DNA of 64,000 bases from Candidatus Limnocylindrales bacterium (lineage in GTDB: Bacteria; Moduliflexota; Moduliflexia; Moduliflexales; JAUQPW01): the NCBI GenBank assembly GCA_035559535.1, contig DATMBG010000058.1, positions 62,001 through 126,000 on the forward strand, read 5' to 3'. Positions 11,737-48,846 of the stretch are shown in pieces. Made by a program: the position numbers and the translations under genes. The notes under the pieces are model-generated. The model was not told the origin of the DNA. It searched no databases and saw nothing but the letters and a program-made list of their open reading frames with translations. How positions within the stretch are numbered: position 1 is the first letter of the stretch; each line of letters begins with the position of its first letter.

Positions 11737-11740
11737 AGGG

Positions 11741-11820: not shown

Positions 11821-11850
11821 GGCGGACTATATCCAATTTGAATTAAGGGT

Positions 11851-19857: not shown

Positions 19858-21222
19858 ATGTATTCCGTTTTGATTGTCGATGATGATGCAGCCCTACGGC
19901 TGATTTTATCTGATTTTCTCTCTCAAGAAGATTACAAGATCTTGCTGGCGAAGGACGGTAGGGAAGCCCTGGATCTCATGAAAAAGCAACAGGTGGATAT
20001 TCTGCTGCTGGATATCAATATGCCCGGGATGACGGGTATGGAAGTTCTGGAGAAAGTTAAAGAACTGGGAGAAAATCCTTTGGTTATTATGTTATCAGCC
20101 CTTCAAGAAGTTAAGTTAGCCGTAAAGGCGGTGAAACTGGGTGCTTATGACTATCTATCTAAGCCTGTCAATTTGGAGGAACTTAAGCTTGTTATAGAAA
20201 AAGGTCTTCAACATAGACAGTTGGAAAGAAAAGCAGAACATCTAGAACAGAAGATCCAGGAATCCTGGAGCACAGAAGGACTCCTTGGAACCAGCCCTGC
20301 CATGAAAAGGGTTTTCCAGTTTATAGACAAGGTTGCAAGAACCGATACCACAGTTCTTATTCAAGGAGAGAGCGGGACCGGTAAGGAGCTGGTTGCGTAC
20401 GCCATTCATCAACGCAGCTTGAGAAAAGACAAGCCTTTTATAACCATTGATTGCGGTGCTATTCCAGAAGAGTTGGTGGAAAGCGAATTATTTGGACATG
20501 AAAAGGGGGCCTTTACAGGGGCCCTTCAAAAGAAGGAAGGAAAATTCGAACTGGCCAAGGGTGGAACCCTGTTTTTGGATGAAATAGGAAACCTACCCCT
20601 TCCAGGACAGGCTAAGCTCCTCCGGGCATTGGAACAAAAACAAATAACCCGAGTGGGTGGTATCTCAATGATACCCGTGGATGTGCGGATTATAGCGGCT
20701 ACCAATGTTGTACTGAGCCAGGCAACCCGGGAGGGAAAATTTCGGGAAGATTTATTTTATCGACTGAATGTTTTTATTTTAGAACTTCCTCCCCTACGAG
20801 AGAGAAAAGAGGATATTCCTTTGCTGGTAGAGAATTTTCTCCATCGCTTTGCCCAACAGCAAAGAAAGAATATTCGAGAAATTTCCCCGGAGGCCATGGG
20901 GTTACTTCTAAATTACCACTGGCCCGGCAACGTCCGGGAACTGCGCAATGTACTGGAGCGGGCCATTATCCTGGCAGAAGATTCCATAAGACCTGAACAC
21001 CTGCCCAACTTTCCCGGATCAATCCCTTCCCCTTCCCTGTCTTCCCTCTCAACTCTGCCTTTTTCCGAGGCCAAGGATAAAGTTCTCTCAGATCTGGAAA
21101 AGGAATACATTCTGCAGGCCTTAGTGAAAAGTGGTGGAAATAAAGCCAAGGCTGCCCGTGCCCTCAATATCAATTACAGAACGCTTTACGAAAAAATGAA
21201 GAAGTATGGTATCAACGTTTAA
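19858..21222 (+). CDS. NtrC-family sigma54-dependent response regulator
   Basis: 454 residues with the full NtrC layout: receiver (Asp52 in LLLDINMPG, Ser80, Lys102), AAA+ domain (Walker A GESGTGKE at 170-177, sigma54-contacting GAFTGA at 217-222, Walker B LFLDE at 239-242 or so) and a Fis-type helix-turn-helix (NKAKAARALNINYRTLYEKM) at the C-terminus. When phosphorylated it should activate sigma54 promoters. It follows kinase 2 and precedes pilin cassette B, much as PilS-PilR sits with pilin genes elsewhere. I did not find a convincing GG-N10-GC promoter before either cassette. The start has no clear ribosome binding site. Confidence 0.93.
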   Translation: MYSVLIVDDDAALRLILSDFLSQEDYKILLAKDGREALDLMKKQQVDILLLDINMPGMTGMEVLEKVKELGENPLVIMLSALQEVKLAVKAVKLGAYDYLSKPVNLEELKLVIEKGLQHRQLERKAEHLEQKIQESWSTEGLLGTSPAMKRVFQFIDKVARTDTTVLIQGESGTGKELVAYAIHQRSLRKDKPFITIDCGAIPEELVESELFGHEKGAFTGALQKKEGKFELAKGGTLFLDEIGNLPLPGQAKLLRALEQKQITRVGGISMIPVDVRIIAATNVVLSQATREGKFREDLFYRLNVFILELPPLRERKEDIPLLVENFLHRFAQQQRKNIREISPEAMGLLLNYHWPGNVRELRNVLERAIILAEDSIRPEHLPNFPGSIPSPSLSSLSTLPFSEAKDKVLSDLEKEYILQALVKSGGNKAKAARALNINYRTLYEKMKKYGINV

Positions 21223-21835: not shown

Positions 21836-23248
21836 ATGGTCATTAACAATGAGCTTCAACATTTTCAAAATGAGAAAGGAATAGCCCTTGTGGTCGTCAT
21901 AGCGGTCAGTGCTATTCTGCTTATGGCCCTGGGTGCTGGTTATGCTATCATGACCAGTGCTTTAAGTACGGCTGATTCAGAAGTTAGCCGGGATCAAGTT
22001 ATGAATGTGGCCCTGGCGGGAATCGAGGAAGCACTGGCCTGGTTTAGATCTATGGCCAATGGAAAACAGGCTGTCAAGGCCACATTCGATCCCATGCAAT
22101 CAGGTACCCGGGGTACGGTACCGGTTACGGTTCCTGAAACTCAGGATACTAGTTGTGTAGGTGGTTCCTCAAGTTATAACACAAATTGCGTGGGAATTAT
22201 GAGAGACTTCAAAATCGGCTTAATGAATAACCTGTATGGACACTATGAACTCAGGAGAACCGGTAACGCCGTTCAAGATATTACCAATCTTCGAATTCCA
22301 GGTAACACCAATGCAGCTAATCCCCCTGCGGGCGTTGTGTGGCGGCTCGAGGTAAATGCCTACACTTATCAACGCAATTCAACCGGTCCCCTTAATCCCA
22401 ATAACCCGGGGCAAAATAAAATCGTGGAGCAGGTGGTTATGGATGCCGAGATTCGGCGGATGGTATTGACCCCCCCTCCGGCAACGGTCAGTACCTTCCG
22501 AGGAAGCAATATTCAGGTTCTCCAGATGGGTCAGATATGCAATACCTCTTCTAATACGGCGGCTTATATCTCCCAGAATCCTGGAAACTCAACTACTCCC
22601 GCCACCATGAACTGTCCTATTCCGGGTTCCAATCAAATACTGACCGCCTCATCCACACAATTCAACCAGACGGTAGATCCCTACAGTTTGTTTGGTATGA
22701 GTTTATCTGATCTCAAAACCTTCGTTCAGAATAGTCCTAATGGAATCTATATTAACGGAAGTGCCAACCTAAACAAAATCACCCCTTTCCCTGTTAATTC
22801 TACCAATCCCCCTCTGGTTTATATAGAGAATGTAACCAATGCTGACATCTGTCTTTATAACAGCACTACCAATCAACGCATCGATGCTTTTGGAGTAATC
22901 ATAGTCGATGGGGGGAATGTTAATATTTGTGGGGCTGACGGTAAACCTTGCAGTAGTGGAGGAGGGGGGAGTAGTCCGGTTTGTGGTACCGGTTGTGTAA
23001 CGGATCAATGCGGCAGTTTTACCGGCTTTATCTATATGAAGGGGACGCTTAATATAGACGGGGGAGCTGTGATTAACGGGGCCGTTGTTGCAGCCCCAGA
23101 TAGCTTTGGTTCTGTGGCCGCCGTGATTGGAGATTCCAGTGGAACGGTAATTACCAAACTTAATTTCAACGGCAATTTTATCACCGGGGTTCTTAACCAA
23201 ACCATGAGTAACTACGCCATATCGAGAGCGCCCCATATTAAACGGTAA
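21836..23248 (+). CDS. PilX-like minor pilin (cassette B, gene 1)
   Basis: 470 residues. The leader MVINNELQHFQNEKG precedes IALVVVIAVSAILLMALGAG, a prepilin-like class III signal without Glu+5. GAGGA lies 6 nt before the ATG. The body resembles the cassette A paralogue at 10447. A Cys-rich insertion (about 360-385, with GGGGSSPVCGTGCVTDQCG) is longer than the matching CGTNNCG stretch in A. The C-terminal part FTGFIYMKGTLNI/AVINGAVV matches the A copy. The gene is 13 bp upstream of the giant pilin. Likely a minor pilin that assembles with genes 2 and 3. Confidence 0.82.
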   Translation: MVINNELQHFQNEKGIALVVVIAVSAILLMALGAGYAIMTSALSTADSEVSRDQVMNVALAGIEEALAWFRSMANGKQAVKATFDPMQSGTRGTVPVTVPETQDTSCVGGSSSYNTNCVGIMRDFKIGLMNNLYGHYELRRTGNAVQDITNLRIPGNTNAANPPAGVVWRLEVNAYTYQRNSTGPLNPNNPGQNKIVEQVVMDAEIRRMVLTPPPATVSTFRGSNIQVLQMGQICNTSSNTAAYISQNPGNSTTPATMNCPIPGSNQILTASSTQFNQTVDPYSLFGMSLSDLKTFVQNSPNGIYINGSANLNKITPFPVNSTNPPLVYIENVTNADICLYNSTTNQRIDAFGVIIVDGGNVNICGADGKPCSSGGGGSSPVCGTGCVTDQCGSFTGFIYMKGTLNIDGGAVINGAVVAAPDSFGSVAAVIGDSSGTVITKLNFNGNFITGVLNQTMSNYAISRAPHIKR

Positions 23249-23261
23249 AGGAGGCTTTTAT

Positions 23262-26200
23262 ATGTTTCGTTTAAATAAAAAATTAATTGGATTATCCCGA
23301 GAATCCGGTCTCAGCTTGATAGAATTGGTGGTAGCTGTGGCCATTCTGGGCGTCCTGGTAATCGGAGCCATCACTTATCACACCGCAGCTTATAAATCTA
23401 CTACCTTGAATCAAGACCGTGCCTTTTGTATTCAGAAATCTATTCAACTCATCAATGAACTTAGGGAGAGAACGGCAGGGACCGATACCGCGGCTTCATT
23501 AGCCCCTTATGATCAGGTTATCGAAGATGCCAACGGGAATATCCTCAACAGCTTTTATTCTCCTGTTCTTAGTCTTCAACTCGAACAAAATCTGGCCGTA
23601 GCTCCCAATGCCCCGGCCGATCCTTTAAGTGGTAATATAAATACAGGAAATGGTTGGAAATTCCAAAGACAGATCGATGTGAGAAGGTTTGATTATACCC
23701 AACCTATCTCTTCAGAAGAACCGATGATGGTGACCGTCAGATGCTTTTATACCGATGCTTCCAATCCCTCTCAGGGAGGACTTCCTTTAGCCGAGACGAC
23801 CAGTGTTATGCGAAAACTGGGTAATAGTCTTCCGACCAGTCAGACCTTCGATCTGTATGTTCTTGCTGTGGATACAGTTCCCGGCTGGTGGGTCAGTTTA
23901 GGAAATCTCCGGCCGATCATTAACACAGCCGTTAACCAGCTACAGGCCAGTAACCCGGGTCTCAATTACCGAATGCATTATATTACCCGAGCTGCTTTCG
24001 GTCGGGATAAAAGTTATGCCCCCTTCCTGAATACTCCGGCCAGTTACGACCCGACGGTTAACTATCCGGCAGTTCTTACCAACCCTTATTCTCCCATCGA
24101 ACCAGCCTATTATTATCCAGGCCTTCTCCAGACCACTACGGGGAGTCCTGAGTTTGAGTATTACAGAGCTGCTTTTTTGAACCAGGGTAAAATTAATCCA
24201 GGTCGGGTCATCAATATCAGTGGTGTGGGTAATGTGGGCATCCCCAACAGTAACGTGACCGGGTATACAGGTGGGAACGTCCCCCTGGCCAATGTGGCAG
24301 GTATTGTAAGAGCCGGATTACTTTATGATCCCCAGGATCCACCTAATACCTTGGGAGCCAATCTGGATGACGACCATTATTTAGTCGTGCGTTATGCGCT
24401 GGCCGACTATTTTAACCATGCCGTGCGTTATCCCGAGGAATTAACCGAGTACTGCATGCGCAAATACGGCAACTTACCTCAACGAAATCCGAATAAAAAT
24501 AATATTTGGGATTGTCTTCCTGCCGACACCAGCTCTGCAGCTCCTTTTACCCTCCCTACCGGAATGACCTACACAGACTTTGTTCAACGTTATACCGAAC
24601 CTACCATGGAACCCAGCCTCAGAATCCTGCTGGAGCAGCTTTATCAGGATCCGGCCTCCTATCAGAATATCTTGATCCTCAACGCCCATGGGGAGATGCT
24701 TCCGATACCTCCCATGCGGAATTATTCAGATCCGGCTAAAAACCCAAACCCCGGTGGTACCAATACCAACCCCACGGTGAGTGGTTTCCCCGGCGTTCGC
24801 GTGGTTACCCATCCGGAACAATTAGAGTATCAAAATGGAAACAATGTCGTACTGCGGGTTTATTCCTATGTTACTCCTGAAACGATGGCCAGTACCCTGG
24901 TGGGTTGTAACAACGCCATCCCTCAGTATGGACCAACGGCTATTTTAGATAAGGATTGTGACCCCACCACAGCCAACACAGCCAACAAAGATGATGAAGT
25001 CCCCATTGTCGTAAGGATTTCGGGAGTCAATTTCAGTGGTTACAATATTACTTCGGGTACGGGGGTTACCGGTACCGGTAATATCGAGGTTCGCAGGATT
25101 CGAGGAAATCCAGGAGCAGGCTATTCCGGCTGGGGTAACGCTCCCACTTCAGAGGCAGCCGAAGGAGCCGGGAGTATGTGGTATGAGGCTTTCCATTGCT
25201 GTCCGCTTAACAGTGGTTCCGATCTCATCGTTCTGCTCTATAATAGTCCTCTGCGTCATGATCTGGCTACATCCCCCGGGGCATCCCCTCCTTATACAGC
25301 ATCCGTCGGGGCTACCGACACAGGGCTTCCATCGGCAAGACGTCTGTATGGAATGGAATATATTCCTGCCTTTACAGGAAATCCGGCTAATCTGAGTGCC
25401 AATCCTAATTACGATCTCTCGTCGGTTAGTTCCTCAAATTACAAAAATACCGCCCGATGGACTATTACCTTGCTGAATACGGGAGGCGTTCTGGATAATC
25501 AGCAGTTAACCATTGAAACCCGCATTGCACCCCGCCGGGTTACCGGTGAGGCCGACAGTACCTATATCACACGAACCCTCTATTTAGGCTATGACCCGGC
25601 CAATCCCTATTCCTATATTCCCGATCTTCCTGCAGGGGCTGTAGTAGGAAGCGCAGGACTTTATATGTCGGGTGGGACGTATGACTTTGTAACGGCCAAC
25701 AATGTTCCCAGTGATATTTCAAGGACTTACACCTGGCTTGCTAACATCAACTGCACGTCCGGAACCACGGGGTGTAACATACCTACAAGTACCGGTAGAG
25801 CCGGCCAAACGGGTATGGAGGGTCTAGATTTCCCGGTTAACGGTTTTCGAGCTCCCTTCACCGAAAGGTTTCAGTTTATGGGAGACCCACGTCATAGCCC
25901 CTATTGGGATGTTAAAGCCGACCATCGCTACAACTGGTATTTTGTGGATGATGCCAATATGCCCGGGGCTCCTTACAATACGGCGCCCTACAATACCGCT
26001 GCGGGACGCAATAGTCCTCTTAACAGTAATGGCTTTGCTGGTTTTACATCCAATGCCGATGATGGGTGGTCCAACGGTTCTGGAGGGACCAGCAATCCCG
26101 GCAGACTCCCCTTTGATTATCCCAGATTCGCCGAGGTCTATCGTATGGGAATTCTCAAGAGTCGATCTATCTTCAACAGCATTACCGGTTGGGGTTTCTA

Positions 26201-27824
26201 CTATACGGATCCTGGAAGTGCCATAGGTGGCGATACCCCCTGGCTGGTTTCCTATAACATGGTATGGACAGACGCTATACGTGTACCTCTGAATCCTTTC
26301 AGAAATCGAAATAATGTTGCTCCGGCCGCAGCGAAGGAGGGAAATAATGACTATAACACAGGAAGTAACTTCATTGATCTGGATGAAATAGCCGGTAGTC
26401 ACGGTAATTGGGCGGCCAATGGTCCCTACGGTCGTACCCGGGTATTGACCCAATGGGCTGGAGTAGGCAACTGGTATGCCAAACCCTGGTTGGGAGAAAT
26501 CTATCCGGATATTACCAATAATACCAATTATTATGCTGCAGCTAACATAGGGTGGAAAACCCGAGGAAATCTCCCGACCAGCATCTTCAATCAAGATACG
26601 GAAGAAGTGGCCTACTTGGGATATAATGCCACCCGAAGTAACGAAAGTAATGGAGCACCCAGTTTCTTCAACGGAGTTACTCTGTATAATCATACTAACA
26701 TTTTAACCACGACCAATCAGACTGCTATAGGGGTTGCCATGACCAGTGCTATCAAGTCTACGATAAACTTCTCGATCAATGCCCAGCGACCCTTTCAAAT
26801 TCATGATACCTCTTCGACCCCTCCTGAGAACGGTGTAGCCCCTTATAATACCAGTAACTTGCGGACCACCGTATCCCTTTTTGCCCCGTTTTATTGTACC
26901 GGGGGAACTCCTCCTAACCCCCCCACACCCGGGGTACCCTCTACCTGCGGCGGCAGTAATCCCCCTTCAAATACCCGAATGGGGAGTGCCTTGCTCCAGG
27001 TCCGGCAAGATCCTGATTTTAACCCGGCCGGAGCCAGTACCGGTTCCTCCTTAGATGCCAATACCAATGTCCCGAACAGTAACGACCTCTTCGGATACTT
27101 TGTGATGAATGGGCTTCAGCCGGCCGGAGTTTCTAATCCCGAAACCCTCTTAACCACAGTTAATCTGAGTACCTTAACCTACGGGTTTATGCTGACCGGT
27201 CAGTCCACCCATCCGGTTACCGGGGCTGCCCTTCCTCTCAACCCGGCGACCGGAACCCCCTGGAATAGTATTCGCCAGCTCCCTCGGGTTGAAGTAGTCG
27301 GCCCGGATCCAGGTAATCAGGCCGCTTTGACCAGTCCTTCCTCATTGACCATCCAGTGGAATATCACCTGGCGGCGATGGGATGGTTTACCCTATACTCC
27401 GGGCTATCAAACCAACTTCGCTGAAAAGACTCCCCTTTACTATGTCTTGATGTATTCCGATGGGGGTCCCTGGCGTTATGTCATTGGAGATAATGACCTG
27501 GTTCCAACTCCTCCCGATGATTGGACAAGTCGTGCAGCTCTGCCTGTACAGGATGGAGGTAAGTATACCACCGCTATGGGCCCCAATAAAATCCACTTCA
27601 TTTGTGAAGGAGCCAATACACCGGATTGCCCAGGAAACTTTGCGACCATGAATACAACAGCACTCCAGAGACAATATACCTGGAATATCTCCGGGCTTAA
27701 TCTCAATCTGGGTGGATCCAATAACCCCCCCGGGCAAACCTATACCATTCGGGTCGTGGTTCATCGTAAGAATATTTATAACCACTTTGCTTACCATGAT
27801 CTGCAATTTGTGCTTCGACCTTAA
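23262..27824 (+). CDS. Giant PilV-like prepilin (cassette B, gene 2)
   Basis: 1520 residues with AAGGAGG 7 nt before the ATG. The leader ends RESG before LSLIELVVAVAILGVLVIG, a canonical prepilin site with Glu+5. The large exported region parallels the cassette A protein end to end but carries several insertions, for example around residues 330-370 and 880-920, that make it about 105 residues longer. Shared blocks include FGRDKSYAPF, VRYALADYFNHAVRYP, MRNYSDPAK, GVRVVTHPEQLEYQNG, NTARW.ITL and the C-terminal KNIYNHFAYHDLQ. It is rich in Asn, Thr, Pro and Gly, as in secreted beta-structured proteins. Function unknown; adhesin or pilus-tip role inferred. Confidence 0.83.
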   Translation: MFRLNKKLIGLSRESGLSLIELVVAVAILGVLVIGAITYHTAAYKSTTLNQDRAFCIQKSIQLINELRERTAGTDTAASLAPYDQVIEDANGNILNSFYSPVLSLQLEQNLAVAPNAPADPLSGNINTGNGWKFQRQIDVRRFDYTQPISSEEPMMVTVRCFYTDASNPSQGGLPLAETTSVMRKLGNSLPTSQTFDLYVLAVDTVPGWWVSLGNLRPIINTAVNQLQASNPGLNYRMHYITRAAFGRDKSYAPFLNTPASYDPTVNYPAVLTNPYSPIEPAYYYPGLLQTTTGSPEFEYYRAAFLNQGKINPGRVINISGVGNVGIPNSNVTGYTGGNVPLANVAGIVRAGLLYDPQDPPNTLGANLDDDHYLVVRYALADYFNHAVRYPEELTEYCMRKYGNLPQRNPNKNNIWDCLPADTSSAAPFTLPTGMTYTDFVQRYTEPTMEPSLRILLEQLYQDPASYQNILILNAHGEMLPIPPMRNYSDPAKNPNPGGTNTNPTVSGFPGVRVVTHPEQLEYQNGNNVVLRVYSYVTPETMASTLVGCNNAIPQYGPTAILDKDCDPTTANTANKDDEVPIVVRISGVNFSGYNITSGTGVTGTGNIEVRRIRGNPGAGYSGWGNAPTSEAAEGAGSMWYEAFHCCPLNSGSDLIVLLYNSPLRHDLATSPGASPPYTASVGATDTGLPSARRLYGMEYIPAFTGNPANLSANPNYDLSSVSSSNYKNTARWTITLLNTGGVLDNQQLTIETRIAPRRVTGEADSTYITRTLYLGYDPANPYSYIPDLPAGAVVGSAGLYMSGGTYDFVTANNVPSDISRTYTWLANINCTSGTTGCNIPTSTGRAGQTGMEGLDFPVNGFRAPFTERFQFMGDPRHSPYWDVKADHRYNWYFVDDANMPGAPYNTAPYNTAAGRNSPLNSNGFAGFTSNADDGWSNGSGGTSNPGRLPFDYPRFAEVYRMGILKSRSIFNSITGWGFYYTDPGSAIGGDTPWLVSYNMVWTDAIRVPLNPFRNRNNVAPAAAKEGNNDYNTGSNFIDLDEIAGSHGNWAANGPYGRTRVLTQWAGVGNWYAKPWLGEIYPDITNNTNYYAAANIGWKTRGNLPTSIFNQDTEEVAYLGYNATRSNESNGAPSFFNGVTLYNHTNILTTTNQTAIGVAMTSAIKSTINFSINAQRPFQIHDTSSTPPENGVAPYNTSNLRTTVSLFAPFYCTGGTPPNPPTPGVPSTCGGSNPPSNTRMGSALLQVRQDPDFNPAGASTGSSLDANTNVPNSNDLFGYFVMNGLQPAGVSNPETLLTTVNLSTLTYGFMLTGQSTHPVTGAALPLNPATGTPWNSIRQLPRVEVVGPDPGNQAALTSPSSLTIQWNITWRRWDGLPYTPGYQTNFAEKTPLYYVLMYSDGGPWRYVIGDNDLVPTPPDDWTSRAALPVQDGGKYTTAMGPNKIHFICEGANTPDCPGNFATMNTTALQRQYTWNISGLNLNLGGSNNPPGQTYTIRVVVHRKNIYNHFAYHDLQFVLRP

Positions 27825-27865
27825 TCGGGGTAATGGGGAATGGGTGTCAGGTAATAGTTTAAGTC

Positions 27866-28076
27866 CTTATCCCCTCACCCCTAACCCCTCTCCCAGAGCT
27901 TCGTGAGAGGGGAATGAAGGGGTTTCTAACATCCTGCCTTCTCCGACTCTCCACGAAGTCAAGGGGTGGAGAGAGGATCAGGTAAGACAAAGAAGTTTCT
28001 AATCAATCGAGACGATTGACCTACCTTTCCTCCCCCCTCTCCCACAGTGTGGAAGAGGGGCTGGGGGTGAGGGCAA
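27866..28076. repeat. Palindromic repeats inserted between cassette B genes 2 and 3
   Basis: The 268-bp gap contains three GC-rich hairpins: CCTCTCCC...GAGAGGGG near 27890, CTCTCCAC (27947-27954) with GTGGAGAG (27966-27973), and CCCTCTCCCAC...GAGGGG near 28035-28060. In cassette A the matching genes overlap by 29 bp, so the repeats mark a break in the coupling of genes 2 and 3 in cassette B. Confidence 0.6.
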
Positions 28077-28092
28077 GCAATACTATTTTATT

Positions 28093-29496
28093 ATGATCCA
28101 AATTCAGAGAAGTTTAAAAATCTTGAAGTCGGAATCCGGTCTCTCACTGGTTGAGATGATGATCGTGGTGGCTATTATGGGTATCCTGAGCATTATCCTC
28201 TACGATCTTAACCTGAGCATTCTAACCTCCAACCTTTTTATTGAGGTTAAAAATGACCTGTCGTTACAAGGTCAGCAGGCCCTTAATCCAATTAAAAACC
28301 GGTTGATTTCCTCACGCCTTTTACTCGTCGATAGCTACGTGAAACCTGCCACTCCTGGTTCTGGGACCTGGACCGGACTAGGAAGTTATTATATCCAGTA
28401 CCTGCAACCTTCTTCCCAATATCCTCCCCTTCCAACCATTATTCTCCCCAGTGGGACTTACTGTCCACCAGGATGTCCCAGTAATAGCGATTATCAGAAT
28501 GTCATTGTCCGGAGCGAGAGCCGAATGGTAACAGGTCAAACCCTCCCTCAGGCAATCACTCAACTGGTGCCCTTGAACGGTCAGGCAGCTTTCGGTCTCA
28601 GCGCAACCAGTATAGGAAATTCCATTCTGTTTATAGAAACAATGCCTGCCCGACAGGTTCGCCATACTTTTGGAGGGGTTTCTACGGATTATTTAATAGA
28701 CGCTTATCGCCTCAACTACTACTACCTCAGTCAGAATAACAGCAATTCCGTAGCCGGAAAGAACTATTATATAGACCTCATTCAGTGGGAGAGCCAGGAA
28801 TTCGCAGATTATGGTCAGTTTCTTCAAATCGCAACTTATATCAAACAGCAAAATACCTCAGATACTCCGGTTGATATCATCAATCAGCTCAAAAACCCAA
28901 CCACTTCTCCTTTCCCGGCCGAAAGGGGAAGACCTCCGCTTAGGTATGCCTGGGATGTAGGTAAAGCAGGGACGATTAATATTTCCAATATAGCCGGTTC
29001 TATCCTGGGAAACTTTTACTGCCTGGATGCCACGGCCCCTTCCTGTACAGGGGGTTATATTACCACCTTTGACCCGACCAATAACAATACCAGCGATGAT
29101 TTTCCCTTGACATTGGTGAGTTCAACCTTTAGGATTCCTTCAAATCAGGTTAAGAGCCTTTTGCCGGGATTATACGCAGGAGCCTCACAGGGGCGGAGCT
29201 ATTATACCATTGCCTTTAATAATGATGCCAACAGTAATCTTAACTCAGCCGGATTAATCCCTCAAAATATTCCTCAGTTAGTCCCTCTGCGTTTCAACCC
29301 CTATGATACCAGCGGTTACGCTACGGAAGTGGGGGCTTCTACTTCCAAATTTATGGGTGGATTTGAAATCGGCGTTGTTTCTCAAACCGTCGGCTATCAG
29401 GTTAACCTGAGATTGGTTCTCATGGGGGATACAGGAGGTATTCTTCGACGGATGATTTCCAATGAAACGGTGGTTCTGGCCGCACCCAGAGGCTAA
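28093..29496 (+). CDS. PilW-like minor pilin (cassette B, gene 3)
   Basis: 467 residues. The leader MIQIQRSLKILKSESG precedes LSLVEMMIVVAIMGILSIIL, a prepilin cleavage/methylation motif with Glu+5. The rest aligns with the cassette A gene 3 product (LYDLNLSILTSNLFIEVKND, NRLISSRLLL, SATSIGNSILF, FMGGFEIGVV, GYQVNLRLVLM). No strong ribosome binding site precedes the ATG. The gene is set apart from gene 2 by the palindromic repeats. Probable minor pilin of the same tip complex. Confidence 0.82.
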   Translation: MIQIQRSLKILKSESGLSLVEMMIVVAIMGILSIILYDLNLSILTSNLFIEVKNDLSLQGQQALNPIKNRLISSRLLLVDSYVKPATPGSGTWTGLGSYYIQYLQPSSQYPPLPTIILPSGTYCPPGCPSNSDYQNVIVRSESRMVTGQTLPQAITQLVPLNGQAAFGLSATSIGNSILFIETMPARQVRHTFGGVSTDYLIDAYRLNYYYLSQNNSNSVAGKNYYIDLIQWESQEFADYGQFLQIATYIKQQNTSDTPVDIINQLKNPTTSPFPAERGRPPLRYAWDVGKAGTINISNIAGSILGNFYCLDATAPSCTGGYITTFDPTNNNTSDDFPLTLVSSTFRIPSNQVKSLLPGLYAGASQGRSYYTIAFNNDANSNLNSAGLIPQNIPQLVPLRFNPYDTSGYATEVGASTSKFMGGFEIGVVSQTVGYQVNLRLVLMGDTGGILRRMISNETVVLAAPRG

Positions 29497-40250: not shown

Positions 40251-41984
40251 ATGCCAGTGCCAAGGAAACTCGGGGAAATCTTAGTCGAAGAGGGACTTAT
40301 CACCGCAGATCATTTAAATCAGGCCCTTGAAAGACAAAAAGAAACCGGGCGGCAACTCGGTGCCATTTTAATAGAAATGGGCTTTTTAAAGAAAGAAGAA
40401 TTATTAACCTGTTTAAAGGAAAGGTTTGGGATCTCCTCTGCAAATCTTGATTCGGTATCCTTTATTGAACCGAACCTTCTTAAATTAATTCCCCGGGATA
40501 CCGCTGAAAAATATGTAGCGATCCCTTTGGAACTCAAGAATCGAAAGTTAGTGGTAGCCATGGCAGATCCTTTAAATATGGCAGATATAGATGACATTCA
40601 ATTCAGAACCGGTTACAGTACTATACCGGTTTTTGCTTTTGAGTCCGATCTAAGAAAGGCGATAAATAAATTTTACAGTCAAAGTGAAAAGCAGACCCCA
40701 GAAGTCGGTAAATTGTCAGGAGGAACCGTATCGGACTTAGAAAGCAAGGAGATCTATGGAGAAACCGATGAAATTGAAGGAACTTCTTCTACTGAAGAAG
40801 AAATAGAAGTGATCTCTTTGATGGAGCTGGATTCTCCTATCAATAAATTTTTACATGGTATCTTTAGCACGGCGGTTCAAAATCATGTTGATGAAATTCA
40901 CATGGAGTTTTACCCGGATGGAGGTCGTGTACGGTACCGAATGGATAATGTCTTGTATGAAGTGCTGGGATCCAGCCGGCCTGCGAAAAGTGCTTTGTTA
41001 AATCGATTAAAGCGATTGCTGGGATTAGAAGCCCTGGTGAAGTCCGATTTCCAGAAAAAATATGTCAAGCTTAAACTCGGAGATCATTTTCCTCTACTAG
41101 ATCTTTCTGTGTTTTCTTGCCCTTTGGACGGGGGAGAGAAGATTTTGTTCAAATTAAAGAATAGATCCTCTCCTCTAAATTTAGACCGATTGGGTCTGGA
41201 AGCCTCTACGGTCAAGAATTTACAAGAAATCCTTAGAAAACCTACGGGATGTACGCTGGTTACCGGACCGATTCGAAGTGGAAAAATGACTACCCTCTAT
41301 ACCTTACTCTGCCTGGCAACACCTCCAGAACTTAACAAGATGACCTTAGAAGATGCCACAGCCTATTCTCTAAAAGGGGTTAACCAGATTATGGTATCCC
41401 CGGAAGAGGGATTTACTTACCTTACAGGCCTTCAATTTATCAAGGCTCATCTGCCGGATTTGATCATGATCGATACCTTAAGGGATCCGGAGTTGGCAGA
41501 TAAAGCCTTTGATCTGGCGGCAGAAACCCGTTTGATGAGTTCTTTGGGAGCTCTGGATACCACCCAGGCCATCATGAGACTTCTTACCTACCTGCCGGCT
41601 GCTAAGCTGGCTAATAACCTTAATTGTGTGATTGCTCAAAGGTTGGTTCGTAAGATTTGTGGAAATTGTAAGGAGCCTATCATTTTGTCTGAGTCGAATA
41701 TGGAGAGGCTCGGCTTTACCCCCCAGGATACCTGCTATACCGGAAAAGGATGTGCCAGTTGCGGTTATACCGGATATCAAGGAGTTACCGGAATTTTTGA
41801 AGTCTTATGGTGCTCGGATAACATCCGAAGGCTGATAATCAACGAATGCAGCGCAGAGGAGTTGAAAACGGCAGCCATACAAGAGGGAATGTCTACCTTA
41901 CGAAAGAGTGGCTTGGAAAAAGTTAAACAGGGTATCACCACGCTGAACGAAGTGATACGATCCACACTTCGCTCCGCCGTGTAA
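40251..41984 (+). CDS. MshEN-domain GspE/PilB-like protein with damaged ATPase motifs (1)
   Basis: 577 residues, AGGAGGT 9 nt before the ATG. Residues 1-140 form an MshEN domain: KLGEILVEEGLITADHLNQA and QLGAILIEMGFLKKEELLTC match the two c-di-GMP-binding motifs of MshE-type proteins. The C-terminal half aligns with the GspE/PilB secretion ATPase, including a Cys4 zinc site (CGNC...CASCGYTGYQG). Catalytic motifs are altered: Walker A is GPIRSGKMTT (Lys345 kept, the Thr replaced by Met346), Walker B reads MIDTLRD instead of GEIRD, and the His-box TLHTND is SLGALD. It probably binds c-di-GMP but may not hydrolyse ATP. First gene of a module ending in an HD-GYP protein. Confidence 0.85.
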   Translation: MPVPRKLGEILVEEGLITADHLNQALERQKETGRQLGAILIEMGFLKKEELLTCLKERFGISSANLDSVSFIEPNLLKLIPRDTAEKYVAIPLELKNRKLVVAMADPLNMADIDDIQFRTGYSTIPVFAFESDLRKAINKFYSQSEKQTPEVGKLSGGTVSDLESKEIYGETDEIEGTSSTEEEIEVISLMELDSPINKFLHGIFSTAVQNHVDEIHMEFYPDGGRVRYRMDNVLYEVLGSSRPAKSALLNRLKRLLGLEALVKSDFQKKYVKLKLGDHFPLLDLSVFSCPLDGGEKILFKLKNRSSPLNLDRLGLEASTVKNLQEILRKPTGCTLVTGPIRSGKMTTLYTLLCLATPPELNKMTLEDATAYSLKGVNQIMVSPEEGFTYLTGLQFIKAHLPDLIMIDTLRDPELADKAFDLAAETRLMSSLGALDTTQAIMRLLTYLPAAKLANNLNCVIAQRLVRKICGNCKEPIILSESNMERLGFTPQDTCYTGKGCASCGYTGYQGVTGIFEVLWCSDNIRRLIINECSAEELKTAAIQEGMSTLRKSGLEKVKQGITTLNEVIRSTLRSAV

Positions 41985-41992
41985 AGGGATTT

Positions 41993-43849
41993 ATGAACGA
42001 AAAAACCATCAAGATTTTATTGGAAGAAGCTGCCCTTACTCCGGAACAACTGGCTCAGGTACGAGAAGAGCAGAGAAGATCTGGAACGAGTCTTCAGATT
42101 ACTCTGGATAAAATCGGGCTCGGAGAGGAAAAGATCGTAAAAATTTTAAGTGAGAAATTCCGTATTCCCATGGTGGATTGGTCCAACGTACAAATAAATC
42201 CCGAAGTTTTAAGTATCGTACCGGAAGAAAAAGCAAGGAAATATTTGGTATTTCCCCTGTCTGTGGAGCGCATGGAACGACGACAAGGCCGGATCACCCT
42301 GGCCATGGTGGATCCCCTGGATCTCGCCACACTTACCGAAATCAGCTTCATGACTGGCTGTAATATCAAACCCCTGATCGCCTCAGAATCTTCTATTCTG
42401 AATGCCATCAAGAAATACTATGGGATGGTAAGTGAAAAGATCGAAAGTCCGGAAGAAAAGGAATCCGGCGGACCTATGGGGATAGGTTTGAAGCCCTCCG
42501 TCCTGGGAGAAGAAAAAGCCTCTCCCATTAAAGGGATTGAAGAATTACGTACCCTGGCCAAAGATCTTGCAGGATCTATAGAATCCCTGGAGGAGAAAGA
42601 AGAAGTCATTCCGGCAGGACCAGAAAACCAGGCGGATAAGTGGCTTGTTCAGATTTTAACCCAGGCCTTTAAAAAGGGGGTCAGCGAAGTCCATCTGGAT
42701 CCCCACGAACGGGGCTTGACGGCTCGCTATCGTATAGACGGTATTTTATATAACTTCGGAGAATCTCCCCCAGGACTGAAAAAAGCCGTTATTTCCGCTT
42801 TGAAACAACGGGGTCAAATCACGGTACCTACCGATAAAGTACCTTATCAAGGGGATCTTATCCTTAAACTGGACTCAAAGGAAAAAGTGGAATTTCTCGT
42901 TTCTATGTGCCCCACTTTTTATGGAGAAAAAATTACCTTAAAAACAAAAAAGAAGGCCACAGATTTGCTGGATGTGACCAGATTGGGGTTTGAAGAAAAT
43001 ACTTTAAAAATGTTTCTTAAACTCCTGGATGTTCCCGATGGTCTCATTTTAATTACCAGCCCCCTGAATGGAGGGAAAACCACGACTTTCTATGCCATCC
43101 TTCAATATCTCAATCGTCCCCATCTAAATATCGTAACGCTTGAAGATATGATCGAGTACTCTATCATGGGAATCAACCAGAGTTACCTGGAAAATCCAGA
43201 AAAGATCCGAGAAAAAGCTTTCCAATTGATGGATTATCATCCAGATGTGTTTGGGATAGGGGAAATTCTCAATAAAGAAGCGGCTCGAATCGCCTTAGAT
43301 CTTTCCTCTCAAACCCTGGTCCTTGCCACCTTAACGGCCTCCGATACCGCCAGTGCCCTCCTCCAGTTCTTTTCCCTGGTAGAACCTCGTACCAACTGGG
43401 AGCGAAGTTTGGTCCTGGATTCCATTAATTGCATTGTTTCTCAGCGGCTTGTTCGACAAATCTGTCCCACCTGTAAAGAGGAACTAAAACCCCAAGGAAA
43501 TACCTCTGGATTTAACAAACTCACCCTGGGCTTATCGACTTCTTCGGAAATACCTAACCCAGGAATCCCCCCAGGTCCCTCTGAAAAAGAAAGTAGTATA
43601 CCTTCCTTTTATAAAGGAAAAGGATGTGCAAACTGCTATCAAACAGGTTACAAAGGCCTGACCGGTCTTTTTGAAATTATGAGAATCACCCGAGAAATTA
43701 AAGATATGGTTCTCTCAGAACCTTTAACCGGTAACCTGAGAAAAATTCTACGGGACCTGAAAATGACTACCCTGGAAAAAAGTGGGATGCAAAAGATAAA
43801 AAATGGAATAACCTCCTTTGAAGAGATTAAACGGGTACTGGCCTGGTAA
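41993..43849 (+). CDS. MshEN-domain GspE/PilB-like protein with damaged ATPase motifs (2)
   Basis: 618 residues, 8 bp after gene 1. Its N-terminus (ILLEEAALTPEQLAQVREEQ, LQITLDKIGLGEEKIVKILS) is a more divergent MshEN domain. The secretion-ATPase half has a Walker A of SPLNGGKTTT (Lys362-Thr363 kept, first Gly replaced by Ser356), a Walker B of GIGEILN (Glu kept, Arg-Asp lost), TLTASD in place of the His-box, and zinc cysteines CPTC...CANC split by a Pro/Ser-rich insert (about 500-545). Gene 1 and gene 2 are damaged at different motifs, so a mixed hexamer with complementary sites is conceivable. Alternatively both are regulatory pseudo-ATPases. Confidence 0.85.
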   Translation: MNEKTIKILLEEAALTPEQLAQVREEQRRSGTSLQITLDKIGLGEEKIVKILSEKFRIPMVDWSNVQINPEVLSIVPEEKARKYLVFPLSVERMERRQGRITLAMVDPLDLATLTEISFMTGCNIKPLIASESSILNAIKKYYGMVSEKIESPEEKESGGPMGIGLKPSVLGEEKASPIKGIEELRTLAKDLAGSIESLEEKEEVIPAGPENQADKWLVQILTQAFKKGVSEVHLDPHERGLTARYRIDGILYNFGESPPGLKKAVISALKQRGQITVPTDKVPYQGDLILKLDSKEKVEFLVSMCPTFYGEKITLKTKKKATDLLDVTRLGFEENTLKMFLKLLDVPDGLILITSPLNGGKTTTFYAILQYLNRPHLNIVTLEDMIEYSIMGINQSYLENPEKIREKAFQLMDYHPDVFGIGEILNKEAARIALDLSSQTLVLATLTASDTASALLQFFSLVEPRTNWERSLVLDSINCIVSQRLVRQICPTCKEELKPQGNTSGFNKLTLGLSTSSEIPNPGIPPGPSEKESSIPSFYKGKGCANCYQTGYKGLTGLFEIMRITREIKDMVLSEPLTGNLRKILRDLKMTTLEKSGMQKIKNGITSFEEIKRVLAW

Positions 43850-43994
43850 AGGGTGAAAATACTCTGACCGGCCACAAAGACCTGAGAGGTAATAAAAGTT
43901 GAGAAAATTTTTACTCTGGTAAACCTGTGGTTCTTGAGGTTAGTATAAAGTATTAAACCCAAATATTCCATTTTCTTTTGTTGATGTTTGCTTT

Positions 43995-45881
43995 ATGAAC
44001 GACCCCTCTAATAAGTTCTCTAATCTCATTCATCCTCTTTCATTGGGATCGCCTTCTGCTAAAGCGAAGGAAGAGATCGAAGACCTTAAAAGCTATCTAG
44101 AAGTCTCGAGGGATTTTCAAAATGACAAGGAAGTTGATCTGATAAAGGAAATTCTCCTTCTCCTGGAAAAGGCCATTAAAGTCTGTCAGATTTATCATTC
44201 CGGTCATCCCACCTATCAGAAGTTTATCGAACTGCTTGGAAAACGCTTCGAAGTCTGTCAGACCCACATTGACCCCATCGTCCTTCGTATAGAGCAATTT
44301 GAGATTATTTTCGAAGATGAGGTGGTTTATAAAAATTCCGATAAAAACGTGAGTGTGGCCTTCAAGCTCTTCAAAGATGGCATCACCTTCCTGTCCTTTT
44401 ACAAAGGACTTACCCAACAGGAAATCGTAGAGTTTGTCGGCGCTTTAGCCTTAGCTTCCAGGGATGAAAATAAAAGTGAGGATCTTCTGACCCTCTTCTG
44501 GGAGAAGGATTTCGAACATATTGCCTATCAAGTTATAGATCATTTTATTGAAACGGAATTGGCCGATAATGAGGAATATAAGGCTTTCATTGAAAAACTT
44601 AATTCAGAGTCAGGAGTTGACTTGAAGACCATCCCTCCAGAAGACCTGAGATCCGATGAGCCGACCGAAATAGCTCTGGAGTTCGGTTTTTCCCCGGAGA
44701 TATTCCTTCAACCCCTCCCGGATTCCTCGGATTGGAAGAAAGAAGAACTGATTCCTCTTACTCAATCGGATTTAGAAGAGATAAAGAAAATTAAAGAGCA
44801 GATAAATACCGAAACCCCCCTCAATCTGGTTTATAAGATGACGGCCATTCTTTTTGAGGTTCTCCACTTGAGGAAAGGCCTATCCGAGTATAAAGAAATT
44901 CTAAATGTTTTAGAAAAAATCGTCGAACCGCTGGTCGCTCACGGTAATTTTTTCTCAGCCAGTGAAATCCTTCAAAAACTAAGAAGAGAAATCATCCCCT
45001 TGGCAACCCAGCTCTCTCCGGAGCATTTAAAACTCGTCCAGGATGTTATAGATCGTATAGGGAACCTGCAAGGGATAAACCGGGTTGAGATGGGGTTGAA
45101 GTCCCTTCACCCGGATCGATTAGGATGGGTCCTGGATTTTCTAACCCTTCTCAGCCCCCAGGCGATTCCTTATCTGGCCGGTTTATTAAAGAAAGTTCGC
45201 GACTCCCGGGTTCAAAAAGTTCTTTACGAGGCTATCCTGGCCTTAGGACGGGAGAATATTTCCATGCTGTTGACCGCTCTGGAGACCGGAGCCCTTCCCA
45301 TGACTTCAGAAATCGTCTCCCTGATTTTAGAGCAACAAAAAACAACAGAAGAACATAGAGAAGAATGGGTACGCCTGACCCATCTTGCCCTTCATAAAGA
45401 TCCTAAAGTTCGAGAAAGCCTGGCAGATGTTTTAGGTAAATTGCCTCACCCCATGTCGGGTTCTTTATTGCTAAAGCTTCTTCAAGACCCTGATCCGGGA
45501 GTTCGAAGCCGGGCTTTAACCAGCCTATCCCATTTCCATGATGACAAAATAGCCGCAGGACTCTTAAAAATCATCATTCGGAAGGATTTCAATACGAAAC
45601 CTTTTGCGGAAAAAAAAGAATTTTTCAAGGCCTTAGGAAATCAGAAATCGATTAGAACGATTCCTATCTTACGCAAAATTCTTCAAAGGGAAGAGAGGTG
45701 GTTCAACCTGGGGAAATATGATGAAGTAAGGCTAGGCGCCACTCTGGCCCTGGGTATATTAGGGGCGCAAGAAGGACCCCTGGCCCTGGCAGCCCGGGAA
45801 GCCTTGAAGGAAGGAACACAATCTCGAAGGAAAATAGTGAGAGAAGCCTGTGAAAAAATTTTGAAAAAAATCGGCTCTTAG
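43995..45881 (+). CDS. HEAT-repeat protein with HD-GYP-associated N-terminal domain
   Basis: 628 residues. Residues of about 55-200 (KAIKVCQIYHSGHPTYQKFI, IEQFEIIFEDEVVYKN, SVAFKLFKDGITFLSFYKGL, EIVEFVGAL) match the N-terminal domain of the HD-GYP protein encoded downstream. Then a linker and alpha-helical HEAT units follow at about 400-628 (DPKVRESLADVLGKL, DPGVRSRALTSLSHF, EVRLGATLALGILG). It is cytoplasmic, with no signal or membrane segment. HEAT arrays bind proteins, so this may link the phosphodiesterase to the GspE/PilB-like pair. No clear ribosome binding site is seen before the ATG. Confidence 0.72.
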   Translation: MNDPSNKFSNLIHPLSLGSPSAKAKEEIEDLKSYLEVSRDFQNDKEVDLIKEILLLLEKAIKVCQIYHSGHPTYQKFIELLGKRFEVCQTHIDPIVLRIEQFEIIFEDEVVYKNSDKNVSVAFKLFKDGITFLSFYKGLTQQEIVEFVGALALASRDENKSEDLLTLFWEKDFEHIAYQVIDHFIETELADNEEYKAFIEKLNSESGVDLKTIPPEDLRSDEPTEIALEFGFSPEIFLQPLPDSSDWKKEELIPLTQSDLEEIKKIKEQINTETPLNLVYKMTAILFEVLHLRKGLSEYKEILNVLEKIVEPLVAHGNFFSASEILQKLRREIIPLATQLSPEHLKLVQDVIDRIGNLQGINRVEMGLKSLHPDRLGWVLDFLTLLSPQAIPYLAGLLKKVRDSRVQKVLYEAILALGRENISMLLTALETGALPMTSEIVSLILEQQKTTEEHREEWVRLTHLALHKDPKVRESLADVLGKLPHPMSGSLLLKLLQDPDPGVRSRALTSLSHFHDDKIAAGLLKIIIRKDFNTKPFAEKKEFFKALGNQKSIRTIPILRKILQREERWFNLGKYDEVRLGATLALGILGAQEGPLALAAREALKEGTQSRRKIVREACEKILKKIGS

Positions 45882-45882
45882 T

Positions 45883-45942
45883 AATTAACAAAGACTTATT
45901 ATCGATTGTTAATTAGGAGGGGCTGATGGTTCATCGTGAATA
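45883..45942 (+). promoter_or_regulatory. Hairpin plus 5-codon mini-frame coupled to the HD-GYP start
   Basis: AATTAACAA (45883-45891) and TTGTTAATT (45906-45914) form a 9-bp stem. AGGAGG (45915-45920) follows, 4 nt before an ATG (45925) that opens a five-codon frame, MVHRE, whose TAA ends at 45942. The GTG start of the HD-GYP gene (45936) overlaps its last codons. This arrangement suggests coupled translation. Confidence 0.45.
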
Positions 45943-47384
45943 AACCTACAACCTCGACTTTTCTGCCCGGAGAACTGGAAAAGCTTACGGAAAGGCAAAT
46001 CGGTAAATTCGGAATAACTTTTATCCTCCAGCTTTATGGCTCGCTGAAAACCATCCACCTTCACGAATTTCATCATCCTGCCGTAGGAAAATCTCTGGAA
46101 AAACTCTACAGCACCTTAACTGACTTACAAAGCAAGATTGGGGATCTTGTCCTCCAACTGGTTGACGAGTACCTCTTTCTCAATGAGATTCGACTCCCCA
46201 TCCATGCGGAAAGTTTTATGGCTTACGATGTTATAGCAAGCCGGATGAAAAGCTATCGAATAGGTGGAATGGTCTTTCTTAGAGGCGTAGATCTGGAAGA
46301 ATTAAAGAAATTTATGTATCTTTTCCTCCAGATAGATTCGCAATCCCAAGAACCTTTTAAACAACTTACCGCATCCCTGCGTAACCATGCCATCACCGGT
46401 ATCCGGCTTCTTCGACCGGAGGAGATCGCTAAAAACGTAAAATCCACTGCTGTAGATATTCGGGAGAAAGCTAAAATGGCCTACTTTCGAACTATTTTCG
46501 TTGCAAAGCAAACCGCTCAGGATGTTCTGGAAAAAGAGACCCTGAATGTAAGACGCGTGAAACGTGCCGTTCAGCCCATTGTAGATCTTGTGCTACAGGA
46601 TGAGTTTGCTTTACTGGGGTTGATGACGATTCAGAACTATGATGCCTATACTTCTAATCATTCGGTTAATGTTTCCGTTTATTCCATTATCTTAGGACAG
46701 AGGTTGGGGCTTTCCAAAAAACAATTGGGAGATTTAGGGGTTACGGCCCTCTTTCATGACATCGGGAAAACCGAAATACCCCGTAAAGTTCTCAATAAAC
46801 CTTCTAAACTAACCGACGAGGAGTGGCGTGTATTACAGGAACACCCGATTACGGCGGCTATTGCCCTGGTAAAATTGAAGGAAGTCAGTGAGTTAATCGT
46901 GAAGGCTATGATTGTAGGTTTTGAACATCATTTAAACTATGATCTCTCGGGATATCCCAAACTTACCCGACAAAGGAAACAACATCCCTTTAGCCGAATT
47001 GTAAGTATTGCTGATTGCTTTGATGCTATGACCAGTGCCCGCGTTTATAGTAAGCCTATTTCTCCGGATAATGCCCTGGCGCTCATGCTAAAAAAAAGCG
47101 GGAAAACCCATGATCCGGTCCTTTTAAAACTCTTTATCAATACCATAGGGGTTTATCCGGTAGGAACTTTGGTTCAACTTAATACCGGAGAACTCGGAAT
47201 CGTTCTTCGCACCAATCCCAGGGAAATTCTACGCCCGCAAATCAAGCTGATCCTGGATAGTCAGGGCCGTAAGTTGGATGGCGAAGTGATTAATCTGGCT
47301 GCTCAGGGAGAAACCTTCAAAAGAGACATCGTCAAGGTCCTAAACCCTACCGAGTACGGAATCAATGTATCAGATTTGATGTAG
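45936..47384 (+). CDS. HD-GYP domain cyclic-di-GMP phosphodiesterase
   Basis: 482 residues from a GTG start. Residues of about 20-130 match the N-terminal domain of the HEAT protein upstream (LKTIHLHEFHHPAVGKSL, LVDEYLFLNEIRLP). The HD-GYP domain spans about 230-400: NHSVNVSVYSIILG, ALFHDIGKTEIP (the HD pair), EHPITAAI, GFEHHLNYDLSGYPKL (GYP kept; the usual HHE is HHL) and ADCFDAMTSARVY. It should hydrolyse c-di-GMP with bound metals, though the HHE change may lower or alter activity. It follows two proteins with MshEN domains, so a local c-di-GMP circuit is likely. Confidence 0.88.
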   Translation: MNKPTTSTFLPGELEKLTERQIGKFGITFILQLYGSLKTIHLHEFHHPAVGKSLEKLYSTLTDLQSKIGDLVLQLVDEYLFLNEIRLPIHAESFMAYDVIASRMKSYRIGGMVFLRGVDLEELKKFMYLFLQIDSQSQEPFKQLTASLRNHAITGIRLLRPEEIAKNVKSTAVDIREKAKMAYFRTIFVAKQTAQDVLEKETLNVRRVKRAVQPIVDLVLQDEFALLGLMTIQNYDAYTSNHSVNVSVYSIILGQRLGLSKKQLGDLGVTALFHDIGKTEIPRKVLNKPSKLTDEEWRVLQEHPITAAIALVKLKEVSELIVKAMIVGFEHHLNYDLSGYPKLTRQRKQHPFSRIVSIADCFDAMTSARVYSKPISPDNALALMLKKSGKTHDPVLLKLFINTIGVYPVGTLVQLNTGELGIVLRTNPREILRPQIKLILDSQGRKLDGEVINLAAQGETFKRDIVKVLNPTEYGINVSDLM

Positions 47385-47487: not shown

Positions 47488-48846
47488 ATGAAAATTTACC
47501 GTTATGCTAAAAAAAGCGAGAATAAAAATTTCCTTGGAACCTTTTGCCTTTTATCTTTTCTTTTACTGGCTTTTTTCATCGTGGGGTTGATTTCCGCAAC
47601 TCCCTCCCCAGGCCAGAAATCCCAGGAGACTGATACCGAATCGGAACTCTTAACAAATGTGGAGGAAGTGTTCAAGGAAGTCAGTCAGATCCGAGGCCTG
47701 GAAATCAAGTATCCTATTCGGAAGGGGTTTAAATCCCAGGTAGAATTACGGGCATTTGTGCTAAAAAAGTTAGAAGAGGAGTACACCGATCAGGAAATAG
47801 CGGCTGAAACTAAAGCCATGGTTAAATGGGGGTTCTTCCCTAAGGATATACAACTTAAAGAATTACTGGTAAATCTACTGGCCGAGCAGGTAGCTGGCCT
47901 GTACGATCCCAAGGAGAAAATATTTTATATTTCCAACTGGATTCCCGGATTCCTTCAGAAACCCATCATGGCCCACGAATTGACCCATGCCCTCCAGGAT
48001 CAGTATTTCGATTTGGATCAATTTTTGCGACGTGTTAAGGATAATGATGACGAGGTTCTGGCTCGAACGGCTCTTATTGAAGGGGAAGCCCTGGCCGTCA
48101 TGATTGAATATCTCCTGAAGCCTCAAGGACTGGATTTCTCAACTTTAACGGATTTGATTCCCCGACTGAAAAACCAGATTTCCATTCTCGGAGGAGATTT
48201 AGGAGAGGGAAGTCAAATTCCTGAAATCATTAAAGAAACCCTTTTATTTCCCTATTTACAGGGAATTTCATTTGTTCAGACCTTCCGAAAATCCCACCCC
48301 TGGAAAGATTTCTCGGAAATTTATGCGGATCCCCCGGCTTCTTCAGAACAGATTCTCCATCCTGAGAAATACTTCGATGCTCGGGATCGCCCGATTCCCA
48401 TTACCTTGGAGAGCATCTCAGATCTGTTACCGAAGGACTGGAAGGAAATTTACACCAACGTATTAGGGGAGTTAGGAATTTCTATTTTGATAAAAAAGTT
48501 TGCAGGGGAAGAAATGGCCAAACTGGCTGCGGGAGGTTGGGGGGGAGACCGATACAAACTTTTAGAAGATCCAAATACAGGAAACCTGCTGCTAATTCAT
48601 TTCTCCACCTGGGATTCGCCAAAAGATGCCATGGAGTTTTTTCTGGCTTATCGGCAGGTGGTGGAAAATAAATATACTTCGGCACAACTCCTTCAATCCG
48701 AGAAGCGGAGGTATTATCTGTGGTCTACAGGGGAAGGGGAGGTGTATCTGGAAATAAAAGGAACGGATGTCCTGGTCATTGAGGGAGCCTCTGAAGACCT
48801 GCTGCCAGCCATCCAGAAAAGGTTGTGGGACAGCCGGAAAGGTTAA
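47488..48846 (+). CDS. Exported neutral zinc metallopeptidase-like protein
   Basis: 452 residues. A hydrophobic stretch (about 17-37) acts as signal or anchor. IMAHELTHALQDQYFDL holds HExxH (His163, Glu164, His167), the gluzincin-type zinc site, and ALIEGEALAVM some 25-30 residues later supplies a likely third ligand (Glu). Fits a membrane-bound or secreted peptidase of a poorly described group; the substrate is unknown. AGGTAAC directly precedes the ATG. It lies 103 bp after the HD-GYP gene on the same strand and could belong to that operon, but an AGGCC/GGCCT hairpin lies in the gap. Confidence 0.78.
   Translation: MKIYRYAKKSENKNFLGTFCLLSFLLLAFFIVGLISATPSPGQKSQETDTESELLTNVEEVFKEVSQIRGLEIKYPIRKGFKSQVELRAFVLKKLEEEYTDQEIAAETKAMVKWGFFPKDIQLKELLVNLLAEQVAGLYDPKEKIFYISNWIPGFLQKPIMAHELTHALQDQYFDLDQFLRRVKDNDDEVLARTALIEGEALAVMIEYLLKPQGLDFSTLTDLIPRLKNQISILGGDLGEGSQIPEIIKETLLFPYLQGISFVQTFRKSHPWKDFSEIYADPPASSEQILHPEKYFDARDRPIPITLESISDLLPKDWKEIYTNVLGELGISILIKKFAGEEMAKLAAGGWGGDRYKLLEDPNTGNLLLIHFSTWDSPKDAMEFFLAYRQVVENKYTSAQLLQSEKRRYYLWSTGEGEVYLEIKGTDVLVIEGASEDLLPAIQKRLWDSRKG

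Follow-up and report, generated by a model that had tools for sequence, protein, structure and literature searches.

The window, a stretch of 64,000 nucleotides (G000:C58:62001-126000) from a 5.6 Mb draft genome of an uncultured bacterium of the phylum Moduliflexota, encodes two adjacent PilB-like proteins, P1 and P2, neither of which has the complete signature of a functional secretion ATPase (Walker A, E357, E395, arginine fingers, HIS box). At a probability of roughly 45%, the best explanation of these proteins is that they are a non-hydrolysing pair derived from PilB, which would regulate type IV pili or relay pilus state and which was joined later by a HEAT/HD-GYP module, predicted to degrade c-di-GMP and encoded by the two following genes, P3 and P4.

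The phylum sample consisted of four Moduliflexota genomes, namely the window's genome (G000), G001, G002, and G003. G001 is a second species of the window's genus (JAUQPW010000011.1, isolate JZ-2.bins.100.201901). G003 is Bacterium UASB270 (DF820472.1), which is taken here to be Candidatus Vecturithrix granuli; Ca. Vecturithrix is a taxon within Candidatus Moduliflexota and belongs to another family than the window's organism. This genome is one of two published for KSB3/Moduliflexota, which have been described as gliding filamentous anaerobes that are unusually rich in signalling genes and whose set of pilus genes is incomplete (PMC4312070). The coordinates, reading frames, and gene identities that an earlier note on this DNA had assigned to P1-P4 were correct (Table 1).

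Table 1. Features of the P1-P4 locus (positions in the window)
Feature	Position	Strand	Description
P1	40251..41984	+	PilB-like pseudo-ATPase, 577 aa; MshEN and degenerate T2SSE, zinc tetracysteine intact
P1 MshEN c-di-GMP-binding stretch (predicted)	40266..40424	+	motif I KLGEILVEEGLITADHLNQALERQ, spacer KETGR, motif II QLGAILIEMGFLKKEELLTCLKER
P2	41993..43849	+	PilB-like pseudo-ATPase, 618 aa; MshEN fold and T2SSE, c-di-GMP motif broken
P3	43995..45881	+	628 aa; N-terminal unnamed domain (YxxxHP type; Y-P-x-x-H-P) and C-terminal HEAT repeats
P4	45936..47384	+	482 aa, GTG start; N-terminal domain as in P3 and HD-GYP phosphodiesterase domain

Motor fold and catalytic residues of P1 and P2

Both proteins had been ascribed the secretion-ATPase fold, and this was borne out, as P1 and P2 are both homologous to PilB/GspE over the full length. 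Pfam matches were obtained for T2SSE (P1, 1.8e-63; P2, 5.2e-65) and MshEN (P1, 4.5e-20; P2, 4.3e-20), and with full-length scores of 214.8 (P1) and 219.9 bits (P2) against a gathering cut-off of 24.9 for PF00437 (T2SSE), both belong to this fold family. Comparison with solved PilB and GspE structures gave E-values of about 1e-100 to 1e-50. The homology with the PilB/GspE ATPases (PDB 5TSG, 6OLJ, 1P9R, 4KSR) extends over the whole length and includes MshEN, N2D, the ATPase fold, and the zinc tetracysteine. In contrast to these ATPases, the pair is altered in the catalytic Glu, the arginine fingers, the HIS box, and Walker A, and its scores with the PilB equivalog model TIGR02538 (P1, 393.5; P2, 343.2) do not reach the cut-off of 675.65, which is passed by an intact PilB of the same genome with 790.9 bits. 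Altogether, the window's genome encodes 16 clear T2SSE proteins, consisting of six intact PilB/GspE-type, six PilT-like, and four degenerate proteins.

Residue numbering and roles follow Geobacter PilB, in which Walker A, E357, and E395 act opposite the arginine fingers and the HIS box across the subunit interface, R271, R286, and the HIS box being supplied by the neighbouring subunit (PMC5424180). The catalytic changes previously claimed for both proteins are real and wider than had been stated. In P1, the claimed replacement of the Walker A Thr by Met (GPIRSGKM) and the loss of the catalytic Glu (E395 to T) are accompanied by replacement of the Mg-binding E357 by A and of R257/R271/R286 by Y/S/K. 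In P2, the first Gly of Walker A is gone (SPLNGGKT) and the Arg-Asp after Walker B is substituted, as had been described; the Walker A Lys and Thr are retained, as are E357 and E395 in the window's genus, and R257/R271/R286 are replaced by D/L/K. The HIS box is missing from both proteins as claimed, with H413/H420 being R/G in P1 and T/T in P2. The four zinc Cys are present in P1 and P2 and are retained in all Moduliflexota members. Catalytic positions of the pair differ between the two families: in Vecturithrix, even the Walker A Lys is gone from P1 (GTARSGMT), and P2 lacks E395. The ASP-box Asp of P2 is an Asn in the sister species G001. None of the 28 outside homologues used for the tree has a change at E357, E395, R271, R286, or H420. 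Loss of the Walker A Lys, E395, R397, or H420 was found in 12 of 51 Moduliflexota ORFs versus none of 198 outside T2SSE ORFs, in survey sets that are neither random nor fully non-redundant. Fold and residue losses together support the proposed descent of two neighbouring pseudo-ATPases from a pilus or secretion motor.

Mutual complementation of active sites inside a P1-P2 ring is ruled out, as both proteins lack the trans-supplied R271, R286, and HIS box. Because these are the residues contributed by the neighbouring subunit, a P1-P2 ring should not hydrolyse ATP. Some ATP binding or assisted hydrolysis by P2 is possible, since the Walker A Lys and Thr and both acidic residues are retained in the window's genus, and a complete P2 site could be predicted only at a P2-PilB interface. 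Participation of P1 and/or P2 in ATP-driven mixed hexamers, in which the arginine fingers and the HIS box of intact PilB complete the P2 site, would be in keeping with the residues retained in P2 and with their location on the other side of the interface in Geobacter PilB (PMC5424180), and the literature leaves open whether the two paralogues PilB and TfpB mix (PMC11656802). This is nevertheless distinctly unlikely, given that Vecturithrix P2 lacks E395, that P1 lacks E357, E395, and the Walker A Thr, and that the ASP-box Asp of P2 has already been replaced in the sister species.

Selection, age, and further degenerate motors

P1 and P2 are kept by purifying selection. Between G000 and G001, the dN/dS ratio (own Nei-Gojobori script; dS about 0.26) is 0.10 for P1, 0.088 for P2, 0.16 for P3, and 0.11 for P4, compared with 0.017 for intact PilB and 0.07-0.12 for other intact paralogues. 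The values for P1 and P2 rule out gene decay, and both genes are free of frameshifts and stops. That P1 and P2 are relict motor paralogues, drifting after loss of function, would account for the unlike catalytic positions in the two families and for the long branches of the pair, but is extremely improbable in view of this selection (dN/dS 0.09-0.10), the uninterrupted frames, the retained zinc Cys, and the adjacency of the pair in two families.

In a tree from which the active-site columns had been removed, the pair formed a clade of six sequences from three genomes, with support of 99/88 for the P1 orthologues, 96/89 for the P2 orthologues, and 99/99 for P1+P2. Support was weaker in a tree with fewer sequences (97/90, 90/43, and 91/78, respectively), and owing to the long P1 and P2 branches the position of the clade within PilB is uncertain. 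In Vecturithrix (G003, L058), too, P1 and P2 are neighbours in this order, without P3 and P4, and the pair thus predates the family split. These sequence data show a single tandem duplication that is older than the split of the window's family from that of Ca. Vecturithrix. No P1-P2 pair was found in G002 (93% complete), so the pair is not general in the phylum. Tandem PilB-like pairs in the genomes G021, G027, G033, and G041 were ruled out as relatives, their motifs being intact.

At least four further degenerate PilB/GspE lineages occur in the phylum, one of them within a pilus gene cluster, and the lineages of the phylum that were testable are under purifying selection; other degenerate lineages occur outside the phylum. 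The degenerate PilB ps3 (669 aa; G000:C17) is encoded downstream of CheR, a 777-aa HEAT protein, CheR, and CheB, the whole cluster including ps3 being located at L064 6703-14083. The degenerate PilB ps4 (G000:C21) lacks a normal P-loop, adjoins PilT genes, and has counterparts in G001-G003; ps4-type ORFs are located at L065 11255-12904, L073 3958-5799, and L196 7597-9501. In the window's genome, ps4 is located in front of two pilT genes, and in G002 the gene order is pilB, a 391-aa ORF, ps4, pilT. Two more degenerate proteins, encoded in G002 and G003 (L197 6867-9116, L199 5460-6947), are derived from PilB lines with a fused response regulator. Uniqueness of degenerate motors to the Moduliflexota was ruled out: among 20 outside genomes, two full-length low-scoring T2SSE proteins were found, one each in G021 and G032; both are degenerate and group with ps3 at 95/95, at a point where long branches meet. 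In two lineages other than the Moduliflexota, degenerate PilB-like proteins with HIS-box His to Tyr and E395 to Asp or Arg exchanges are encoded (L252 4653-6374, L253 6378-8090). Between intact pilB and pilT genes, L254 5479-6642 (G006:C32) encodes a PilT-like protein whose zinc C-terminus resembles that of PilB and whose HIS-box His is replaced by Arg.

Cyclic di-GMP motifs and the HEAT/HD-GYP module

The MshEN consensus consists of two tandem 24-residue motifs, RLGxx(L/V/I)(L/V/I)xxG...LxxxLxxQ, and the exchange G11I abolishes c-di-GMP binding by MshE (PMC5013675). The P1 motif is near this consensus and deviates at three polar positions, with K for R in motif I and, in motif II, Q for R and R for Q. 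In P2, Leu-Gly is replaced by Thr-Ile in motif I and by Leu-Gln in motif II. Motif scores are only a guide, since a GSPII domain of Thermus PilF, altered in its motif residues, is non-binding and is not rescued by a return to the consensus alone (PMC12002112); with this reservation, NCBIfam NF053729 (cut-off 38 bits) gave 68.0 bits for intact PilB, 67.3 for P1, 60.9 for ps3, 57.4 for ps4, and 26.7, below the cut-off, for Vecturithrix P2, and the search yielded no match for P2 and Vecturithrix P1. Both Vecturithrix orthologues have degenerate motifs, and among the orthologues of the pair, P1 of the window's genus is the only one to have kept the motif. Thus, of the claim that both proteins carry c-di-GMP motifs, the half concerning P1 stands and the half concerning P2 has to be given up; as judged from the receptor motif, P1 alone of the two looks able to sense c-di-GMP. 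The tandem motif is common to P1 and the receptors MshE, PilF, and Myxococcus PilB. In contrast to these, the motif of P2 is broken, and in P1 the receptor is joined to an ATPase domain predicted not to hydrolyse ATP. Sensing of c-di-GMP is no distinguishing mark of the pair, as the motif of the genome's intact PilB is just as good.

The HEAT protein (P3) and the HD-GYP protein (P4) described before do follow P1 and P2, and the metal ligands and GYP motif of P4 are intact. P3 matches HEAT_2 (Pfam, 5.7e-15) and its HEAT part matches alphaRep structures; helical repeats were predicted at low confidence (mean pLDDT 53, alignment two sequences deep). P4 matches HD_5 (Pfam, 4.5e-25), and its predicted structure has a mean pLDDT of 33 with an alignment of the same depth; the quality of both models was too low to search for similar folds. 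In an alignment with the HD-GYP phosphodiesterase 4MCW, H242, H274/D275, H303, H331/H332, D360, and GYP are conserved, and P4 is predicted to be such an enzyme from its HD, further His/Asp metal ligands, and GYP. It differs from the phosphodiesterases 4MCW and 4R8Z in being of the HHxxYDxSGYP subtype and in its unnamed N-terminal domain, which it has in common with the HEAT protein encoded upstream (hhalign probability 97.7, E 1.4e-12) and for which no matching Pfam model was found. Directly 3' of P4, a 452-aa protein with a HELTH metalloprotease-like motif and no Pfam match is encoded (window 47488-48846).

Of 192 genomes, 52 encode P4-type proteins by matches at E 1e-60 or better; some of these matches cover the HD part only. 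At 18 of 20 loci from other genomes, which had not been used for building the models, a P3-type (HEAT) gene is located directly upstream of the HD-GYP gene on the same strand. The two-gene module was seen at loci L074, L075, L076, and L232-L251. At none of the 23 HEAT/HD-GYP loci examined was there a PilB-like gene within three ORFs. According to these gene neighbourhoods, P3-P4 is a separate widespread module. A search of the open-licence literature on HEAT-repeat/HD-GYP operons yielded nothing relevant. The order P1-P2-P3-P4 was found only in G000 and G001; the survey of this order, which had been suggested earlier, thus confines it to one genus, with P1-P2 alone in G003 and P3-P4 alone in other lineages. 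Since each half occurs without the other, the four-gene cluster is a junction of two modules.

This bears on the proposal of the earlier note that the locus is a c-di-GMP sensing platform evolved from a pilus motor, read here as a conserved four-gene platform that would be free-standing and unlinked from pili, with P1-P2 as scaffold, the HEAT protein as adaptor, and the HD-GYP protein as enzyme. All four genes are on one strand with gaps of 8, 145, and 54 bp, their synteny is shared by the sister species G001, the P1 motif is near consensus, and P4 has its metal ligands. The neighbourhood of ps3, beside CheR-HEAT-CheR-CheB, is a second one with a HEAT protein and a pseudo-ATPase. However, the broken motif of P2, the degenerate motifs of Vecturithrix, the separate occurrence of the halves, and the restriction of the four-gene order to one genus make this reading rather unlikely, and the 145-bp gap between P2 and P3 has room for a separate promoter. 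Promoter and terminator scans gave fewer sites than shuffled sequence and were given no weight.

A possible role at the type IV pilus

As regulators or relays of the pilus, the tandem-duplicated PilB derivatives P1 and P2 would no longer be ATP-driven motors. Their conservation in tandem and the hexameric state of their homologues suggest that they associate with each other. They may occupy the docking site of PilB on the type IV pilus apparatus or form mixed assemblies with intact PilB, and would then damp, gate, or report the state of the motor. In the window's genus, the MshEN domain of P1 might add control by c-di-GMP, and P3-P4, recruited beside the pair, might lower c-di-GMP locally. In a more specific version, P1-P2 would be a permanently non-hydrolysing ring replacing the motor on the pilus platform, P1 reading c-di-GMP and the HD-GYP protein controlling the ligand; this version is doubtful.

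The link of the pair with pili is drawn by analogy with ps4 and its position between pilB and pilT in G002 and before two pilT genes in the window's genome. No pilus gene was found immediately beside the P1-P2 pair. About 11-30 kb upstream of the pair, two sets of ORFs with prepilin-type N-termini are present (window 10384-17410 and 21836-29493), which include very large ones (1415 and 1520 aa) and in two of which the N_methyl motif was confirmed; a 745-aa ORF and the gene of a sigma-54 response regulator (19858-21219) lie between the two sets. Another role, such as that of an adaptor in a secretion or polysaccharide system without connection to pili, would be compatible with the occurrence of MshEN domains outside pilus motors, such as in glycosyltransferase fusions (PMC5013675), but no genes of such systems were seen in the immediate neighbourhood of P1-P4, and this alternative is very unlikely.

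For a regulatory pair at the pilus, two known systems offer parallels. In Myxococcus xanthus, a Walker A mutant of PilB that is unable to hydrolyse ATP actively signals exopolysaccharide production, showing that a PilB variant can signal without ATPase activity (PMC5544727). However, the M. xanthus signaller is at the same time the motor of the pilus, and its inactive form is a mutant made in the laboratory, whereas P1 and P2 are dedicated paralogues that are apparently naturally dead. Acinetobacter uses two paralogous ATPases in one pilus system (PilB/TfpB, PilT/PilU); both partners are discussed as ATPases (PMC11656802), whereas P1 and P2 lack catalytic residues.

A search of the open-licence literature yielded no description of pilus or secretion motors that are inactive by nature. 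Several lineages of dead motors occur beside intact motors in one small phylum, which makes it testable whether bacteria retain inactive pilus motors as regulators or sensors. Homology alone would label such proteins as pilus assembly ATPases, which is a hazard for annotation. The analysis also singles out the HEAT/HD-GYP gene pair, which is widespread and apparently undescribed. If the reading as a non-hydrolysing ring were true, P1-P2 would be a natural, evolved counterpart of signalling-competent ATPase-dead PilB, which to our knowledge has so far been known only as a laboratory mutant. In that case, P1-P2 would also belong to a broader class of pseudo-PilB proteins that has apparently gone undescribed.
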